Shown: positions 17,937-56,386 of the stretch, piece after piece | Layout: every line of letters starts with the position of its first letter | Position numbering within the stretch: position 1 is the first letter of the stretch | Assembly (NCBI RefSeq): GCF_001457035.1 | Contig: NZ_KQ758618.1 | Span: 620,001-684,000 of the forward strand | DNA: 64,000 nucleotides | Reading direction: 5' to 3' | DNA from: Fictibacillus enclensis | GTDB lineage: Bacteria > Bacillota > Bacilli > Bacillales > Fictibacillaceae | Notes under the pieces: model-generated | The model's input: only the letters and a program-made list of their open reading frames with translations | Database searches by the model: none | Told to the model about the DNA's origin: nothing | Program-made: the position numbers and the translations under genes

Positions 17937-18055
17937 CTCTTATTCCGAGTAGGTGGAGGGACAGGCCCTATGAAACCCAGCAACCGACACTTCGTGCCAA
18001 AAAATGAAGTGAAAAGGTGCTAACCTGCAAGGTGAACAAGCCTTGAAAATAAGAG
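17937..18055 (+). ncRNA. SAM riboswitch (S-box, SAM-I)
   Basis: The conserved core AGGTGGAGGGACAGGCCC, then ATGAAACCCAGCAACC, then GGTGCTAACCTGC is intact. The closing P1 helix is CTCTTAT (17937-17943) with ATAAGAG (18049-18055). A terminator hairpin follows. When SAM binds, the terminator forms and metK transcription stops, giving feedback control of SAM synthesis. This is the normal regulator of metK in Bacillaceae. Confidence 0.97.
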
Positions 18056-27278: not shown

Positions 27279-27302
27279 ACAAGTTAAATATGGTAAATTA
27301 CG

Positions 27303-27505
27303 ATGATAAGGACTAGTAAAAAAGCAGAAGGAAGCAGAGAGTTGACGGATGGTGCAAGTCAACCCCAAACCTTTTTGAACTCGCCTTGTAGTTGCGGAAG
27401 TGAACATTTGTAGCTTCTGTCGTGCAACCCGCGTTAAGGGTCCAATGAGAGAGCGTGGCACGTTTGCACGCTAATGTGGGTGGTACCGCGGCAGGTTAAT
27501 AAGTA
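27303..27505 (+). ncRNA. T-box leader RNA of leuS
   Basis: Senses uncharged tRNA-Leu. The highly conserved T-box AATGTGGGTGGTACCGCGG is at 27473-27491. Stem I elements (GAAGGAAGC and a GGTGCAAG region) precede it. The probable specifier codon is CTC at 27380-27382 within GAACTCGCC, which agrees with the downstream leucyl-tRNA synthetase gene. An intrinsic terminator follows, and pairing of uncharged tRNA to the T-box would favour the antiterminator. Confidence 0.93.
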
Positions 27506-27510
27506 TACAC

Positions 27511-27558
27511 AACCTTTCGTCCCTGAATGTGTTTTAGGGGCGGAAGGTTTTTTATTTT
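27511..27558 (+). terminator. T-box terminator
   Basis: AACCTTTCGTCCCT pairs with AGGGGCGGAAGGTT, followed by TTTTATTTT. Confidence 0.92.
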
Positions 27559-47437: not shown

Positions 47438-47451
47438 AAAAAAGCGTTAGT

Positions 47452-47500
47452 ACGAGGGTTCGAAATTCCCGCCCCTCATTAAAAAAAACTAGGGAGCGTG
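47452..47500 (+). ncRNA. PreQ1-I riboswitch
   Basis: The small aptamer shows a P1 stem with GAGGGTTCGAAATTCCC and GCCCCTC, then the A-rich tail and pseudoknot strand ATTAAAAAAAACTAGGGAGC. This fits class I preQ1 riboswitches, which turn off queuosine biosynthesis operons when preQ1 is present. It precedes queDEC and is followed by a terminator whose stem would compete with the pseudoknot strand. Confidence 0.85.
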
Positions 47501-47594: not shown

Positions 47595-48077
47595 ATGGAA
47601 TTCGAAATTCCAAAAAAGGTGCAAAAAATAGATGAAGATATTCAGCGCGAAAAGCTGAAATACCATAATAAGCGGGTAGCTGTAACAAAAGAATTTACGT
47701 TTGATGCGGCTCATCATCTCCATTGCTATGAAGGAAAGTGCAAGAACCTGCACGGCCATACGTACAGGCTGGTCCTGACCATCAGTGGGTTTGTAGATCC
47801 GGTTGGCATTTCCATGGATTTTGGGGATATAAAGAAAATTTATAAAGAGGCGATCGAAAGCAGGCTGGATCATCGTTATTTAAATGATGTGCTGCCGCCA
47901 ATGAACACGACCGCAGAAAATATGATTGTATGGATCTGGGAAGAGTTCGATCAAAAACTGGATGATTATCAATGGAAAGAAAAAGGCTTCCTCCTAGAGG
48001 AAATCGTACTTTATGAAACACCAACTAGTTATGCAACCATGAAAAGGGAGTGGATGGATCATGACGAATCACTTTGA
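47595..48077 (+). CDS. queD: 6-carboxy-tetrahydropterin synthase QueD
   Basis: 160 residues. Converts dihydroneopterin triphosphate to 6-carboxy-5,6,7,8-tetrahydropterin, step two of preQ0 synthesis. Zinc-binding and catalytic residues are in FDAAHHLHCYEGKCKNLHGH (near residues 37-56), with DFGDIKK and LDHRYLND. ATG 47595 lies after the preQ1 terminator. It overlaps queE by 17 bases, so the genes are coupled. Confidence 0.94.
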   Translation: MEFEIPKKVQKIDEDIQREKLKYHNKRVAVTKEFTFDAAHHLHCYEGKCKNLHGHTYRLVLTISGFVDPVGISMDFGDIKKIYKEAIESRLDHRYLNDVLPPMNTTAENMIVWIWEEFDQKLDDYQWKEKGFLLEEIVLYETPTSYATMKREWMDHDESL

Positions 48078-48792
48078 GCTTCCTTCATCTGATGTGTACT
48101 CCCAATGGAAGCTTCCCATGGTTGAAATTTTTGAAACCATAGAAGGAGAGGGAATGGCTGCAGGCTTTCCAACCATTTTTGTCCGCGTGTTTCATTGCAA
48201 TTTGCGATGCACCTGGTGTGATACACCGTACAGTTATGCTCCTGCCAAACCTGAATTTGAAGCAACAATTGAGGAGATTATTGAACGCATTAACACGTTC
48301 GCCTCTAAGCGCATCTGTTTTACCGGCGGAGAACCGTTAATTCACAGAGAAAAGTCCGCTGCTCTTTTAAAGGCAATGGCGGGCATCGAGCGAATTGAGG
48401 ATATTCATGTGGAAACCAACGGAGCGATTGCTCTGAAACCCTTTCAGCTTTTGCGTGAAAGCGACCCGGTGCTGAGTAGTAAAGTACGATTCGTTATGGA
48501 TTACAAGCTGCCGGCTTCCGGTGAAATGGACCGCATGATTCATGAAAACTTTGTTGTCTTGAAGCCGCATGATGAGATTAAATTCGTGATTGGAACTGAC
48601 GAGGATTTTGACATTGCTTCGTCAGTACTGGAGCAGCATCACAAACAAGGTCTGGCCTTATTCAGCCCGGTCTGGGAGACCATGCCTCCTGAAAAACTGG
48701 TAAACAAAGTATTAAGTGCACGCATGTCAGATGTCAAAGTCAGCATGCAGCTTCATAAAATCATCTGGGATCCGGAGAAAAGAGGGGTATAA
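48061..48792 (+). CDS. queE: 7-carboxy-7-deazaguanine synthase QueE
   Basis: 243-residue radical SAM enzyme that contracts the pterin ring to 7-carboxy-7-deazaguanine. The CX3CX2C cluster is [16 protein letters not shown] (near residues 43-52), with [11 protein letters not shown] later. ATG 48061 overlaps the end of queD; queC begins three bases after its stop. Confidence 0.95.
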
Positions 48793-48794
48793 AC

Positions 48795-49466
48795 ATGAAA
48801 AAAGCAGTGATTGTTTTAAGTGGAGGGCTTGACAGTACGACCTGCATGGGAATTGCAAAACATGAAGGGTATGAACTCTATCCTTTGACCTTTAACTACG
48901 GCCAAAGACACAGCCGTGAAGTGAATCAGGCAAAAAAAGTTGCTGAGTATTTTGATGTAAAGGAACACCGCATTGTGGACATTGCTTTCCTGAACCAAAT
49001 TGGAGGCAGTGCTCTTACGGACGCTTCAATCGATGTTCCAACGGAAAAAGAAGATAAGGAAGAGATACCGTCGACCTATGTTCCGGCCCGCAACATGATC
49101 TTTTTATCTCTGGCTAGCGCCTATGCGGAAGTAATAGGGGCGGAGGCCGTCTTTATTGGCGTGTCTGCTGTCGATTACAGCGGTTATCCTGATTGCCGGC
49201 CTGAATTTATCAAAAGTATGAACGAAACGATTAATCTTGCAACAAAAGCCGGCACGACCGGAGAGCAAATTGCCATCTGTGCTCCGCTTATGCATTTGAC
49301 AAAAAAGGAAACCATTCAAAAAGGACTGGAACTTGAGGTGCCTTATCATTTAACCACTTCCTGTTACAACGGAGAAGAAGAAGCATGCGGCGAATGTGAC
49401 AGCTGCAAGCTCCGCTTAAAAGGATTTGAGGAAGCGGGCGCAAAAGATCCAATTCCATACAAATAA
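48795..49466 (+). CDS. queC: 7-cyano-7-deazaguanine synthase QueC
   Basis: 223-residue ATP pyrophosphatase that converts CDG to preQ0. P-loop [13 protein letters not shown] (residues 8-20), [15 protein letters not shown]-type region and the C-terminal zinc cysteines in [18 protein letters not shown]. Last gene of queDEC. In B. subtilis the operon continues with queF; here the next gene is a metallopeptidase. Confidence 0.96.
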
Positions 49467-49558
49467 TAAGAACTGTCCCCTATTGAAGGTTGGTAAATTT
49501 TGATTGCCAGCGGTACAATAGGGGTATTACATATATCCGTTTTTTGAAAGGAGAACCA

Positions 49559-51196: not shown

Positions 51197-53254
51197 CTAG
51201 GAAGCAGCTCCTTCTGCTTCCATAGATGCTGAGGCTTCAAGCAAGCTGTCTTGGAGAGCGTCAGGCGTCTCGTTTGTACGCTTTGAATGAGTTTCTCCGA
51301 GATGAAACTGCTGAACTTCGTTTTGCAGGTTAAGGGCGATTTCCTGAAGTTCATTGGCAGCGTCGTTCACCTCATTAATGGCTTGTTTATGATGGATGCT
51401 TGATTCGCTGACCTGCTCGCTTGTTGCGACGGACTCCTGTGAGATGGCGCTCACTTTATGGAGTTTTTCTGAAAGTCCCACATTGGCCGCTCCCACATGT
51501 TGAATCGATTGCTGAATACGGCTGATTTTGCTGTGAACCGCAGTTACATTTGTAACGATTGATTCAAATGCCTCTCGGGTCATGGACACGGATTGCAGCT
51601 GTTCATTTCGATATTCTTGAAAACTTGCGGCTTCCTGGGTGAGGTTTTCCATTTGTTTTGCCATCATTTTAACCAGATTCTGAATTTGTTCCGCTTCATT
51701 CTTTGAGCGTTCCGCAAGCTTACGGACTTCGGCGGCAACGACGCCAAATCCCCTGCCGGCTTCTCCGGCTCTTGCAGACTCGATGGCCGCATTGAGTGCA
51801 AGCAGATCGGTACTTCTCGTAATCTCCTGAATGGTATGAACAATCGGCTGTATCTGTTTTGATTGTTCGCTCGCTTGCTGAATTTGGGCAATAAGGTTGT
51901 TTGCGAGAGCAATAAACTTTTCAGAATGATGATTGAGCTGCTGGACCGTTTCCATACCCGATTTTCCATCTTCTTCTGCACGCAATGTATCATCAGCGAT
52001 TTGTTCGCTGAAAGCAGCTGTTGCCTCGATAGCCTCGGTTACCTCATTCAGCAGCTCGGTGCTTTCGTGTAAATGGTCTGCCTGATTCTGCGCCCCGAGA
52101 GATACCTGATGTGCAGCTTCTGAAACTTCTTCAGTCTGAGCCGTTGTCTCTTCGGAAATGGCGGCGAGATGCTGTGATGAAGCTGCCAATTGCTCAGAAG
52201 CTTTTTGTACCTCACTGAGCGATCGCTGCATTTTTTCAGCCATTCCGTTAAAGGTTTCAGCCAGAGCACCCATTTCATCATTGGTCGTCACCTTTACACG
52301 GTAATCCAGGTTTCCGTTTCCGATAATTGTGGCCCCTTCTTTAAGCAATGAAATGGAACGGACGATCGAACGGGTCAGCCAGACTCCGGCAAAGCTGAGA
52401 CCGGCAATAATCACAACTGCCATCCCAATCATGAGCCAGGTGAGCAAGGATTTTAATCCTGACTGCTGGTTTGCAAGCTGGGCCCGTTTTTGATCGTTTG
52501 ATTTTTCGATTGTCATGATGGAAACATCCACCTTGTCGGCGATCGTTTCAAATTCGGCGTTAATTCCCTTGATTTGTTTGGACACGTTTTGAATATTACC
52601 TGCAGATGATGTATATTTCAGCAGTTTGGTTTTGAAGTCGTCTTTTTCCTTCTGGGAAAGGGAAGTCTGGTCAAGCTGATTTTCGAAGGATTGGGCGGCC
52701 TCCTCAAATTTGGTGATATTTTGGTCATTCAATTCTAAATAGAATTCTTTTTCATATGTGCTCATGATCAAGAAGCGGTTGTACAGCTTTTCATCCTTTA
52801 AATCTTTCACTCTTTTTTCAAAGTCCGCTGATGTATCGGACATCAATTTTTTTAGTTCCATAATTTGTACGGTCATCGCTGAAGTAGAAGTAAACGCTGT
52901 TTTGTATTGACCGATTTTATCAAGAATACTTTTGTATTCGTTTTTTAAGGAAGAATTGTTGGCTTTCTTCGAATAGTTTTTTACTTTCTTTTGCAATGTA
53001 AGAACAGAAGAATCAATTTCGCTGGCTTTTTCTGTAGAAGGCGTTCTTAAATATTCTTGCTCCTTCTTTCGGATGGCTGATAATTCGCTGTAAATTTCCT
53101 TGCTTTGGATGCTGTTTTGCTGCAGCTGGTCTTTTTCTGCATCCATTTTTCCGTTCAGCCAAATATAGGCTGCCATAAAGATGGTCATGACAAGCAATCC
53201 GCACAAACTGATCAATAACATGGTTCTGACTCTGTTTCGAATGGACATATTCAT
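51197..53254 (-). CDS. Methyl-accepting chemotaxis protein
   Basis: 685 residues. Transmembrane helix near residues 10-30, a long helical sensory region (no Cache or PAS signature, four-helix-bundle-like), second membrane helix near 268-290, HAMP, and the cytoplasmic signalling hairpin with tip [19 protein letters not shown] and [13 protein letters not shown]. It would feed CheA/CheW; the ligand is unknown. GGAGGGG sets the start at ATG 53254. Not part of the usual Bacillus order here, so perhaps an insertion. Confidence 0.93.
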
Positions 53255-53411
53255 TTTGCTCCCCTCCAATTTTAATATCGGAAGAATCTTCTTTTTGTTT
53301 ATATCTGAAATTTTAAGCAATTTTTTATGGTGTCTTTACAGATGTTAATCCTCCTGTATAATAAATAGGTTACAATGTGCATTCTACATACGATGATAAA
53401 GGAGAATGGGT

Positions 53412-54419
53412 GTGGTTCAATTTTTGGCAAGAAAGGGAGTAACATTATCCCCGAAAGTATATTTCATTACAGGGTTCAGCTATTTTGCGCTTGGATTAAT
53501 GTCCTCGTTGGTGATCGGACTTATTTTAAAAACGATTGGAGAACAGGCGGGATGGCCGTTTTTTATTAAAATGGGGACAATAGCCATGAGCATGCTTGGA
53601 CCGGCTATTGGGGCAGCTGTCGCCTATGGGCTTGAAGCACCTCCGCTCGTGTTGTTTGCGACCGTAGCTGCAGGTGCGGCAGGGGCTGAGCTTGGAAGTG
53701 TGGCAGGCAGTTTTGTGGCGTCCCTTGTAGCGATAGAAGCAGGAAAGCTTGTTTCAAAGGAAACAAAAGTGGATATTCTCGTTACACCTGCAGTCACTGT
53801 TTTTGCGGGCTTTACGGTCGCCTATTTTGCGGGGCCGGGGATCGACCAGTTTATGAAAGGATTTGGCCATCTCATAATGTGGGCCACCGACCAGCGTCCT
53901 TTGGTCATGAGCATTCTTGTTGCAGTTTTGCTTGGGCTTGCTTTGACTGGCCCGATCTCAAGTGCGGCCATTGGTATCATGCTCGGCCTTGAAGGGACAG
54001 CAGCGGGTGCAGCGACCATCGGGTGTGCGGCACAGATGATCGGGTTTGCCACAATCAGCTTCAGGGAAAACGGTTTTGGTGGTTGGATTACGCAGGGGAT
54101 CGGAACTTCAAAGCTTCAGTTTCCTAACGTGGTTCGAAATCCGAGAATCATTATCCCGCCAACGGTTGCCGGCATGATCCTGGCGCCGATTGGGACTCTC
54201 GTTTTCCAGATGGTGAACATACCGGCAGGCGCGGGAATGGGGACCAGCGGCTTGGTCGGACAAATCATGACGTTTCGAACGATGGGCTTTGGCTGGGATG
54301 TTTTTTTGTATATCGTACTGCTGCATATTGCTGGACCAATTGTGATCAGTCTGGTACTTTCAGAATGGATGAGAAAAAAAGGTTATATCGCCTTTGGTGA
54401 TATGAAAATAAATCAATAA
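53412..54419 (+). CDS. PTS EIIC-like membrane protein (PTS_EIIC_2 family)
   Basis: 335 residues with about nine or ten hydrophobic segments, rich in Gly and Ala. The pattern GPAIGAAVAYGLEAPPLVLF and GPISSAAIGIMLGLEGTAAG fits the EIIC_2 family of orphan PTS-like permeases. No EIIA or EIIB domain is present or adjacent, so phosphotransfer is doubtful. AAAGGAG overlaps ATG 53406 too closely; GTG 53412 at 7 bases is the better start. It is 15 bases before ytpP. Confidence 0.8.
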   Translation: MVQFLARKGVTLSPKVYFITGFSYFALGLMSSLVIGLILKTIGEQAGWPFFIKMGTIAMSMLGPAIGAAVAYGLEAPPLVLFATVAAGAAGAELGSVAGSFVASLVAIEAGKLVSKETKVDILVTPAVTVFAGFTVAYFAGPGIDQFMKGFGHLIMWATDQRPLVMSILVAVLLGLALTGPISSAAIGIMLGLEGTAAGAATIGCAAQMIGFATISFRENGFGGWITQGIGTSKLQFPNVVRNPRIIIPPTVAGMILAPIGTLVFQMVNIPAGAGMGTSGLVGQIMTFRTMGFGWDVFLYIVLLHIAGPIVISLVLSEWMRKKGYIAFGDMKINQ

Positions 54420-54434
54420 GAGGAGCGAATCTTG

Positions 54435-54764
54435 ATGAAAACTGTACAAACGATTGAAGAGTTTAAAGAGACCACAGGAACAGGAAAAACCCTCGCTGTT
54501 TTTTCAGCGGACTGGTGTCCTGACTGTGTGTTTATCAAACCATTTCTTCCGGAGCTGGAGCAGGAATTCAACGAGTTTACATTTGTGTATGTGGACAGGG
54601 ATCAGTTGATCGAATTGTGCCAGGAACTTGATATTTTCGGGATACCGAGCTTTGTCGCCTTTCAAGACGGAAAAGAGATTGGACGGTATGTTGACAAAGA
54701 CCGTAAAACGAAGGAACAAATTTCATCGTTTATAAATAATTTGCCTGTTCATGCCAATGAATAG
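54435..54764 (+). CDS. ytpP: Thioredoxin-like protein YtpP
   Basis: 109 residues with a thioredoxin fold; active site FSADWCPDCVFIKPF (CPDC rather than CGPC) and cis-Pro in FGIPSFVAF. It is the Bacillus YtpP type, a likely thiol-disulfide exchange protein. GAGGAGC selects ATG 54435 over TTG 54432. Close behind the EIIC-like gene and probably co-transcribed with it. Confidence 0.9.
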   Translation: MKTVQTIEEFKETTGTGKTLAVFSADWCPDCVFIKPFLPELEQEFNEFTFVYVDRDQLIELCQELDIFGIPSFVAFQDGKEIGRYVDKDRKTKEQISSFINNLPVHANE

Positions 54765-54832
54765 TAGAAGTATGTTAAACTCAAAATAGTACGTGAATAC
54801 GTCGAGCATCATATTAAGAAAGGGCGTTAGCA

Positions 54833-55249
54833 ATGGCAAAGGTAGAAGTAAATCATCAGAAATACGAAGGAATTCGTTTTGATATAGAAGATGAAAGTGT
54901 TATTTTGGTAGACATTCTTGAAACCATTCCTTACGAGTATGTCGGCAAGGATACAATGGTTACCATCCCTACAACAGAATTCACCTCTGTTTGCCCATGG
55001 TCAGGTCTTCCTGATTTCGCGGATATTATCATCAGCTATATTCCAAACGAGGACCTAGTGGAAATGAAGTCGTTAAAATATTATTTAACCTCTTACCGCA
55101 ACGTAGGCATTTATCAGGAACATGCAACCAACAAAATTAAGGAAGATCTCGTTAATCTTCTTAAACCGAAGTACCTTAAAATTGTCGCAACCTGGAATGC
55201 TCGCGGAGGGTTGGGTACAGAAGTGGTTGTAGAATACAAACAAGACTAA
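54833..55249 (+). CDS. queF: QueF-like preQ1 synthase (7-cyano-7-deazaguanine reductase family)
   Basis: 138 residues in the T-fold QueF family, shorter than B. subtilis QueF (165). The thioimide cysteine is kept (TSVCPWSGLPDFAD: Cys54, Asp61) and the NADPH motif appears as EMKSLKYYL. The segment that reads FHED in B. subtilis (His96, Glu97) is YQEH here (Gln95, Glu96), and the EXKS motif has Met where Ser or Leu is usual. It may still reduce preQ0 to preQ1, or have drifted to another reaction. It lies 5.4 kb from queC without its own preQ1 riboswitch. Clear ribosome site AGAAAGGGCG. Confidence 0.75.
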   Translation: MAKVEVNHQKYEGIRFDIEDESVILVDILETIPYEYVGKDTMVTIPTTEFTSVCPWSGLPDFADIIISYIPNEDLVEMKSLKYYLTSYRNVGIYQEHATNKIKEDLVNLLKPKYLKIVATWNARGGLGTEVVVEYKQD

Positions 55250-55250
55250 T

Positions 55251-55279
55251 AAAAAAACCTCCGTCCAGGAGGTTTTTTA
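55251..55279 (+). terminator. Terminator after the QueF-like gene
   Basis: AAAAACCTCC pairs with GGAGGTTTTTT across a 5-base loop. Confidence 0.9.
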
Positions 55280-55306: not shown

Positions 55307-56110
55307 ATGAGTACAAGTCTGAAGCTGAAAAAGGCGCTCGAGGACCGGCTGAAACGTCCGGAATGGGATCTATCCTATGACCGGGAAAATGAACAGCTTA
55401 GAATTGAACACAAGGACATTGGAAAGGGAATGACCCTTTCTCTTTCAGGATTAACAGTGGAATGGGAAAAAAAGAAGGATGCGTTTTTGGATGAACTTGT
55501 TTACCATGTCGAAGAAGCATTGAAAGCCATTGAAGAAACTCCTGCCAGTAAAGCGGAGAATCAAATCTTCCCAGTCATCCGCTCCACTTCTTTTCCAAAG
55601 GAATCACCCGAGGGAGACGCGCTGATTAACGAGGAGCATACGGCAGAAACGGCGGTCTTTTATGCGCTGGATCTGGGAAATACTTATCGGTTAATCAGTG
55701 AAAAGATGCTGGAAGAAATGAATATGACGAGGGAGCAACTGAAGGAAGTGGCCCGCTTTAATGTGAGATCACTGGACACCTCGATGAAAAAAGATGAGGT
55801 CGCTGGCAACACCTTTTACTTTATCAATCACAATGACGGGTATGATGCGAGCAGAATATTGAATGCCTCTCTGCTGGATCGAATGGTACAGGAAGCATCC
55901 GGTACACTCGCAGTTGCCATTCCGCATCAGGATGTCCTTATTCTGGCGGATATCCGCAATAACCAGGGCTATGATATTTTGGCTCAGATGGCGATGCAAT
56001 TTTTCATGAACGGCCGTGTTCCTGTAACTGCATTACCTTTTTTATATGAAAAAGGAGAGCTTGAACCCATTTTTATTCTGGCGAAAAACAAGCCGGTGGA
56101 CGAATCATAA
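55307..56110 (+). CDS. ytpQ: DUF1444-family protein YtpQ
   Basis: 267 residues, soluble alpha/beta protein matching YtpQ (DUF1444): [20 protein letters not shown] at the start, [11 protein letters not shown] near residue 85 and [19 protein letters not shown] near 200. Function unknown. ATG 55307 follows GGAGGG. In B. subtilis ytpR comes next; here it does not. Confidence 0.88.
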
Positions 56111-56386
56111 AAAAATCATGAAATTGTTGGTAAAAATGTGGCGAAAAAAGTCATAAAAGCCATCGATGGACCGAATTTTTATGATAGGGCATGTCCGTAC
56201 CATTCCCTTTGTGAAGTTTGCCGATGAAGCTGTTTGGATATCAGAAATGAGCTTGTGTTTTCATAACCGCTAGAGCAATCTAGTGGTTTTTATATTTTTT
56301 ACTTTCGATGGCAAATTTTTCTTAAAGTATGGCCCGAATTCCGCTACAATATAAAGACAGACCCAGAGAAAAAGAAGGTGAAGGCA
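56111..56386. other. Gene-poor gap between ytpQ and sftA, with a terminator
   Basis: Only a 30-codon frame at 56181-56273 without a ribosome site is open. A hairpin AACCGCTAGA with TCTAGTGGTT and T-run (56265-56300) ends leftover transcription. No trace of ytpR is recognisable. Confidence 0.5.
56265..56300 (+). terminator. Terminator upstream of sftA
   Basis: AACCGCTAGA pairs with TCTAGTGGTT, then TTTATATTTTTT. Confidence 0.85.

Follow-up and report, generated by a model that had tools for sequence, protein, structure and literature searches.

Does a QueF-like protein whose active-site residues depart from those of Bacillus subtilis QueF still reduce preQ0, or does it put this intermediate to another use? 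The question is raised by a plus-strand gene at positions 54833 to 55249 of a 64,000-nucleotide stretch of Fictibacillus enclensis DNA (here referred to as the window), which a sequence-only reading had described either as a working variant of QueF or as a paralogue that uses preQ0 differently, as QueF-L proteins do. We are highly confident that this gene encodes the ordinary and only QueF of this bacterium, a preQ0 reductase of a type with glutamine where B. subtilis has His96 (the Gln type). This result guards against annotating the gene as a paralogue that diverts preQ0, and it carries a more general lesson, namely, that residues which look odd against a single reference species can be the norm within a lineage.

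Conserved and altered residues of the protein

The open reading frame begins with ATG and encodes 138 amino acids, in which Gln takes the place of B. subtilis His96. We annotate it as queF, encoding a single-domain (QueF-II) preQ1 synthase, on the basis of two family models, an alignment with B. subtilis QueF (4f8b), and an AlphaFold2 model. The score was 142 bits against TIGR03139, the NCBIfam equivalog model for QueF-II, thus passing the cut-off of 86.9 bits, and 106.1 bits against PF14489 (Pfam QueF). A terminator-like hairpin (11 pairs, then a run of T), identified as a consensus match only, lies directly 3' of the gene on the same strand (55252 to 55278).

According to an excerpt of PMC5372742, QueF is defined by Cys55, Asp62, Glu97, and a QueF motif with Glu78; His96 is mentioned nowhere in that excerpt. 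All of the defining residues are found in the window protein, which is also, with fewer than 200 residues and a model matching 4f8b at a Z score of 19.2, a single T-fold domain. The catalytic cysteine, Cys54 (equivalent to B. subtilis Cys55; codon at 54992 to 54994, plus strand), Asp61, and Glu96 are present and invariant across the 44 rows of an alignment of relatives (A1), so that their earlier reported retention was borne out both here and in the B. subtilis alignment. The same alignment upheld the two substitutions that had drawn attention to the protein: YQEH (residues 94 to 97; 55112 to 55123, plus strand) stands opposite FHED, and EMKS replaces ESKS in the NADPH-binding motif. This motif, EMKSLKYY (residues 77 to 84; 55061 to 55084, plus strand), agrees at seven of eight positions with the published E(S/L)K(S/A)hK(L/Y)(Y/F/W); the sole deviation is Met for Ser/Leu, and Glu78 is kept. 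Judged by the motif as published, this Met would count against an ordinary QueF.

If the window protein works as other QueF enzymes do, it would use two NADPH molecules to reduce the nitrile group of preQ0 and yield preQ1, passing through a thioimide on Cys54, with Asp61 serving as the acid/base and Glu96 holding the substrate. The preQ1 would then pass through Tgt, QueA, and QueG to become queuosine in tRNA. Such activity would imply that Gln can replace His. Among the papers listed in the literature searches, we found no assay of a Gln-type QueF, whether for this residue or for this lineage. An H233A mutant of Vibrio cholerae QueF was made (PDB 4ghm), and since the corresponding histidine was judged worth mutating, its loss in the Gln type could matter.

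Comparison with proteins of solved structure placed the window protein nearest to B. subtilis QueF. An AlphaFold2 model built from the 44 rows of A1 had a mean pLDDT of 90.4, with Gln95 at the start of a helix spanning residues 95 to 110. The nearest fold was that of B. subtilis QueF (4f8b_B; Z score of 19.2, 118 aligned residues, rmsd of 1.6), which was also the nearest solved sequence (E value of 9.2e-27), whereas the QueF-L protein of Pyrobaculum calidifontis matched less closely in fold (5jyx_M; Z score of 16.0, 103 aligned residues, rmsd of 1.6) and in sequence (E value of 8.7e-5). The window and B. subtilis proteins share the family model, the T-fold, the Cys/Asp/Glu site, the NADPH-binding motif, and the pathway partners, with 49 identities over 109 aligned residues. 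They differ in that the window protein has Gln for His96, His for Asp98, Ala for Cys99, and Met for Ser79 of ESKS, and that its gene stands outside the queDEC unit. The homologous catalytic module of two-domain QueF (the Escherichia coli and V. cholerae type, TIGR03138) was recognized with 43.8 bits, far under the cut-off of 293.45 bits, and the window protein has one domain only.

The window protein is also, as had been noted earlier, 27 residues shorter than B. subtilis QueF (138 versus 165), with a C-terminal tail of about 26 residues missing. The active site of QueF lies between subunits. In B. subtilis, the decamer consists of two pentamers organized via the C-terminal tails and metal ions (excerpt of PMC5372742). 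Lacking the tail, the window protein would therefore have to assemble in a manner different from that of this decamer. It contains a single Cys in total, the B. subtilis Cys99 position having been lost as well. Among 2,074 single-domain sequences, Cys99 occurs in 61%, and either Cys99 or Cys53 occurs in 83% (same excerpt); the absence of both is therefore a known minority state.

The T-fold that QueF-L has in common with the window protein (Z score of 16.0), the altered His, and the detachment of the gene from queDEC could together suggest a QueF-L-like enzyme, which would add ammonia to preQ0, as in archaeosine chemistry, or otherwise divert preQ0. QueF-L proteins are not known to keep the NADPH-binding motif, and the window protein has kept it. 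The features shared with P. calidifontis QueF-L extend to the catalytic Cys and Asp and to the path to the thioimide, which QueF-L has in common with QueF before it amidinates preQ0 in tRNA with ammonia (excerpt of PMC5485725). Since the motif is kept and QueF-L is the weaker match both in sequence and in fold, we consider this explanation highly improbable, and the copy number and gene order described below argue against it further.

Gln, His, and Cys types of QueF

To what extent the altered residues are peculiar to this protein can be read from a sample drawn independently of this residue. A search of 119 Bacillota genomes gave 26 matches at an E value of 1e-15, one of which was the window's own; the other 25, all of which were taken so that the residue played no part in the choice, carry His (13), Gln (6), or Cys (6) at the position of His96. 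The active site is thus altered with respect to B. subtilis, as had been claimed, but the differences mark a lineage rather than this one protein. In our reading of these sequences, they appear to be the mark of a large and ancient branch of this enzyme.

The third Bacillota type, with Cys at the His96 position (FCES, FCET, FCEA, and others; loci L053 to L067 and L177 to L182), likewise lacks His96 and Cys99 and differs from the window protein by its Cys at position 96.

Nearest among the named relatives of the window protein are those of Fictibacillus (88 to 99% identity); further ones come from Pseudalkalibacillus and others, Brevibacillus, Aneurinibacillus, Thermoactinomycetaceae, and Chloroflexota metagenome genomes. 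The set comprises 80 loci kept of 132, at 54 to 99% identity; since YQEHATNK was one of the peptides that seeded the scan, the presence of Gln in all 80 is biased and is not a frequency. The same applies to 59 loci from the order (L009 to L067; 35 His, 15 Cys, and 9 Gln), since they combine the 30 top-scoring loci (196 of 199 genomes matched, 187 of them over the cut-off) with 29 loci from 30 picked genomes, 27 of which were own-family or low-scoring and 3 His-scoring. QueF matches were also present in 30 phage records. Among six of these examined for residue type, the protein of Cellulophaga phage phiSM is of the Gln type (YQEG), the QueF-like protein of mycobacteriophage Funsized is of the Cys type, and the remaining four are of the His type, including those of Dp-1 and HVTV-1, the DNA of which carries dPreQ1 (excerpt of PMC6884629).

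Within the Gln-type lineage, Asp98 is usually replaced by His, and Cys99 is nearly always missing. None of the 105 Gln-type rows, a set which includes many near-copies and three copies of the window protein, has lost the Cys, the Asp, either Glu, or the second motif Lys. The loss of a His regarded as catalytic, along with that of Cys99, could otherwise be taken as a sign of a decaying or inactive QueF. However, the frame is intact in all seven genomes of the genus, the key residues are invariant in the 44 relatives of A1, the 80 named relatives extend over the whole range of identities given above, and the genome holds no replacement queF, making inactivity very improbable. With the frame and active site conserved, a pseudogene was rejected.

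A special case of the favored reading is that the protein is a working preQ0 reductase in which Gln or His97 alters proton transfer or kinetics, for example, by slowing turnover or releasing some of the imine. Consistent with this, all 44 rows of A1 have Gln95 and at least 90% of them have His97, and the residues at positions 96 and 98 are coupled: Gln at 96 pairs with His at 98 in 102 of 105 Gln-type rows, and 50 of 53 His-type rows combine His at 96 with Asp at 98, counts that contain many near-copies and few independent events. On the other side stands a tree of 83 rows, on which the residue classes need just 3 changes (the minimum possible is 2, and the mean after shuffling was 29.1), so that the coupling reflects few events. 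For this tree, duplicates, L050 to L052, and rows with more than 35% gaps were dropped, leaving 155 rows, which were thinned at 88% identity to 83; having few columns, 47 of 80 inner branches unresolved, and long phage branches (HVTV-1 and phiSM), it serves for the grouping of residue classes only. The 12 Cys-type rows in the tree form a separate branch with 99% SH-aLRT support. We judge altered kinetics of this kind to be possible but rather unlikely.

With similar reserve, we tentatively propose that His, Gln, and Cys at position 96 may represent three old catalytic types, with the Gln type having gained a His across the substrate-binding Glu (HED versus QEH) and, with it, a different proton-transfer solution for nitrile reduction. 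If this is true, the textbook His would prove dispensable. Tests of the Gln and Cys types would directly reveal whether enzymatic nitrile reduction requires the conserved His, a matter that bears on the engineering of nitrile reductases and on the automatic annotation of QueF versus QueF-L. Among the matches listed, Gln-type proteins score about 138 to 146 bits against TIGR03139 versus about 171 to 190 bits for the His type, which tells against simply equating the two.

Genome context and the queuosine pathway

The source genome, 4.5 Mb in 10 contigs and listed as 100% complete, gave a single QueF match in a PF14489 profile search. No second, canonical queF was thus found, and one copy per genome was likewise seen in all seven genomes of the genus, including this one, and in all 30 genomes from the order that were searched again at an E value of 1e-20. 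The remaining pathway genes are present. In the window, queD (47595 to 48077, plus strand; TIGR03367, 100.6 bits, cut-off of 89.25), queE (48061 to 48792, plus strand), and queC (48795 to 49466, plus strand; TIGR00364, 255 bits, cut-off of 150.3) follow each other; for queE, the best NCBIfam matches were queE models, none of which reached its cut-off (TIGR03963, 192.7 versus 260.1 bits), together with Pfam Radical_SAM. Elsewhere in the genome, tgt and queG are present, and queA, named by sequence and position, adjoins tgt on its upstream side (L157:4071-5132). No queH was found in the genome, and no DpdA-like transferase was seen, the only Tgt-family match at an E value of 0.001 being a single one.

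Without preQ1 from the window QueF, the Tgt-QueA-QueG branch would lack a known local supply, and the genome context, as far as gene content can tell, very likely points to preQ1 synthesis by this protein. A lone QueF accompanied by queA, tgt, and queG, with one Tgt-family protein and no DpdA-like transferase at the threshold used, also speaks against the addition of ammonia to preQ0, and so do 11 of the 80 named loci, in which Gln-type queF directly adjoins queD-queE-queC on the 3' side (L091, L092, L094, L095, L096, L098, L099, L102, L106, L108, and L109; Aneurinibacillus, Brevibacillus, and others). According to the sequence-only reading, queF is likewise the last gene of the operon in B. 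subtilis. Copy number, motif, fold, and operon evidence together led us to reject the QueF-L-like paralogue, and the option of a working variant gains support from the same context.

In the window itself, five genes separate queC from queF, just as the sequence-only reading had counted; they start at 49490, 50642, 51197 (minus strand), 53406, and 54432. The minus-strand gene (51197 to 53320) stands between queDEC and queF and thus speaks against their simple co-transcription in the window. We count this placement outside the leader-bearing queDEC unit against an ordinary QueF, along with the lack of a tblastn match to queC (E value of 1e-6) in 47 of the 80 named loci, some of which were searched over short stretches. 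In 22 of the 80 (L068 to L087, L090, and L114), queF starts some 4 to 8 kb downstream of the start of queC, versus the 11 in which the two adjoin, and the separation is therefore a trait of the Fictibacillus group and its neighbors.

The genes next to queF are shared in the same way. Its upstream neighbor is a thioredoxin-like gene (54432 to 54764, plus strand; PF00085, 59.2 bits), which we take to be YtpP-like, and its downstream neighbor is a DUF1444 gene (55307 to 56110, plus strand; PF07285, 405.8 bits), which we take to be YtpQ-like. As in the window, queF of the 22 loci with a distant queC has the thioredoxin-like gene immediately on its 5' side and the DUF1444 gene no more than about 1 kb away on its 3' side. 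Thioredoxin reactivates B. subtilis QueF after oxidation (excerpt of PMC5372742). The thioredoxin-like gene adjoins queF here, yet the window QueF has no second Cys with which to form a disulfide, and the neighborhood may be due to chance. Between the DUF1444 gene and a large FtsK/SftA-like gene (56110 to 56378), no plus-strand open reading frame of at least 80 amino acids was found. B. subtilis presumably has ytpR between these two genes, and ytpR may have been lost in the window.

It had been stated that the gene has no preQ1 riboswitch. This holds for queF itself, since Rfam gave no match upstream of it (54300 to 54860) at E values up to 10, and a riboswitch belonging to queF was accordingly rejected; it does not extend to queDEC, which has a preQ1-I riboswitch-like leader at 47449 to 47498 (plus strand). 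This leader surfaced only in a short-range search of 501 bases (RF00522, 23.6 bits, E value of 0.015) and scored below the gathering score of 39 bits. RF00522 had no match in the window at the Rfam curated score, none at that score in the loci of eight relatives, and none genome-wide at an E value of 0.001, with 150 of 1,164 first-look candidates scored. The leader pattern is a hairpin followed by an A-rich tail with CUAGGG at its end. The 64-kb window contains it once, and of 17 relatives examined, 10 have it 5' of queD, including 4 of the 11 with the queD-queE-queC-queF order (L092, L095, L099, and L106). It is absent upstream of queD in the other seven of the 17 (L091, L094, L096, L098, L102, L108, and L109), which are six Aneurinibacillus loci and one from an uncultured member of the Paenibacillaceae. 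The L099 leader scored 28.3 bits against RF00522 and was the sole match among three operon-bearing relatives searched at E values up to 1. By eye, the Fictibacillus-type and Brevibacillus-type leaders differ in both bases of one stem pair. Because neither scored copy (window and L099) reached the Rfam cut-off, we refer to the candidate element only as a preQ1-like leader. A SAM riboswitch (17937 to 18055) and a T-box leader (27294 to 27527), both above the Rfam cut-offs, are also located in the window.

A group I intron-like insert in other queF genes

In other Bacillales, queF is interrupted by a group I intron-like insert located exactly 3' of the TGT codon for the catalytic Cys. Both junctions were seen in six genomes (L051:1146-1500 and L052:1124-1500, with L050, L185, L187, and L189 on the reverse strand), and in a seventh (L188), only the 3' junction was seen. 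Among 397 genomes of the order, 7 have strong matches to the intron, and 3 more have short, weak ones. We found no paper linking a group I intron to queF; the bacterial protein genes listed as invaded in an excerpt of a 2014 review of group I introns (PMC3984707) are those for flagellin, recA, nrdE, and nrdF.

Of three loci on which the model RF00028 was run, L051 (81.6 bits) and L052 (79.7 bits) both reached the cut-off, and L050, which has the long form of the intron, gave no match up to an E value of 1. The insert would presumably be removed by splicing. In the three intron loci that were read (L050 to L052), the host queF is of the His type. Two genomes (G128 and G454) carry the long form with a reading frame, which, from its Cys-x-x-Cys and His-His pattern, looks to be of the HNH type.
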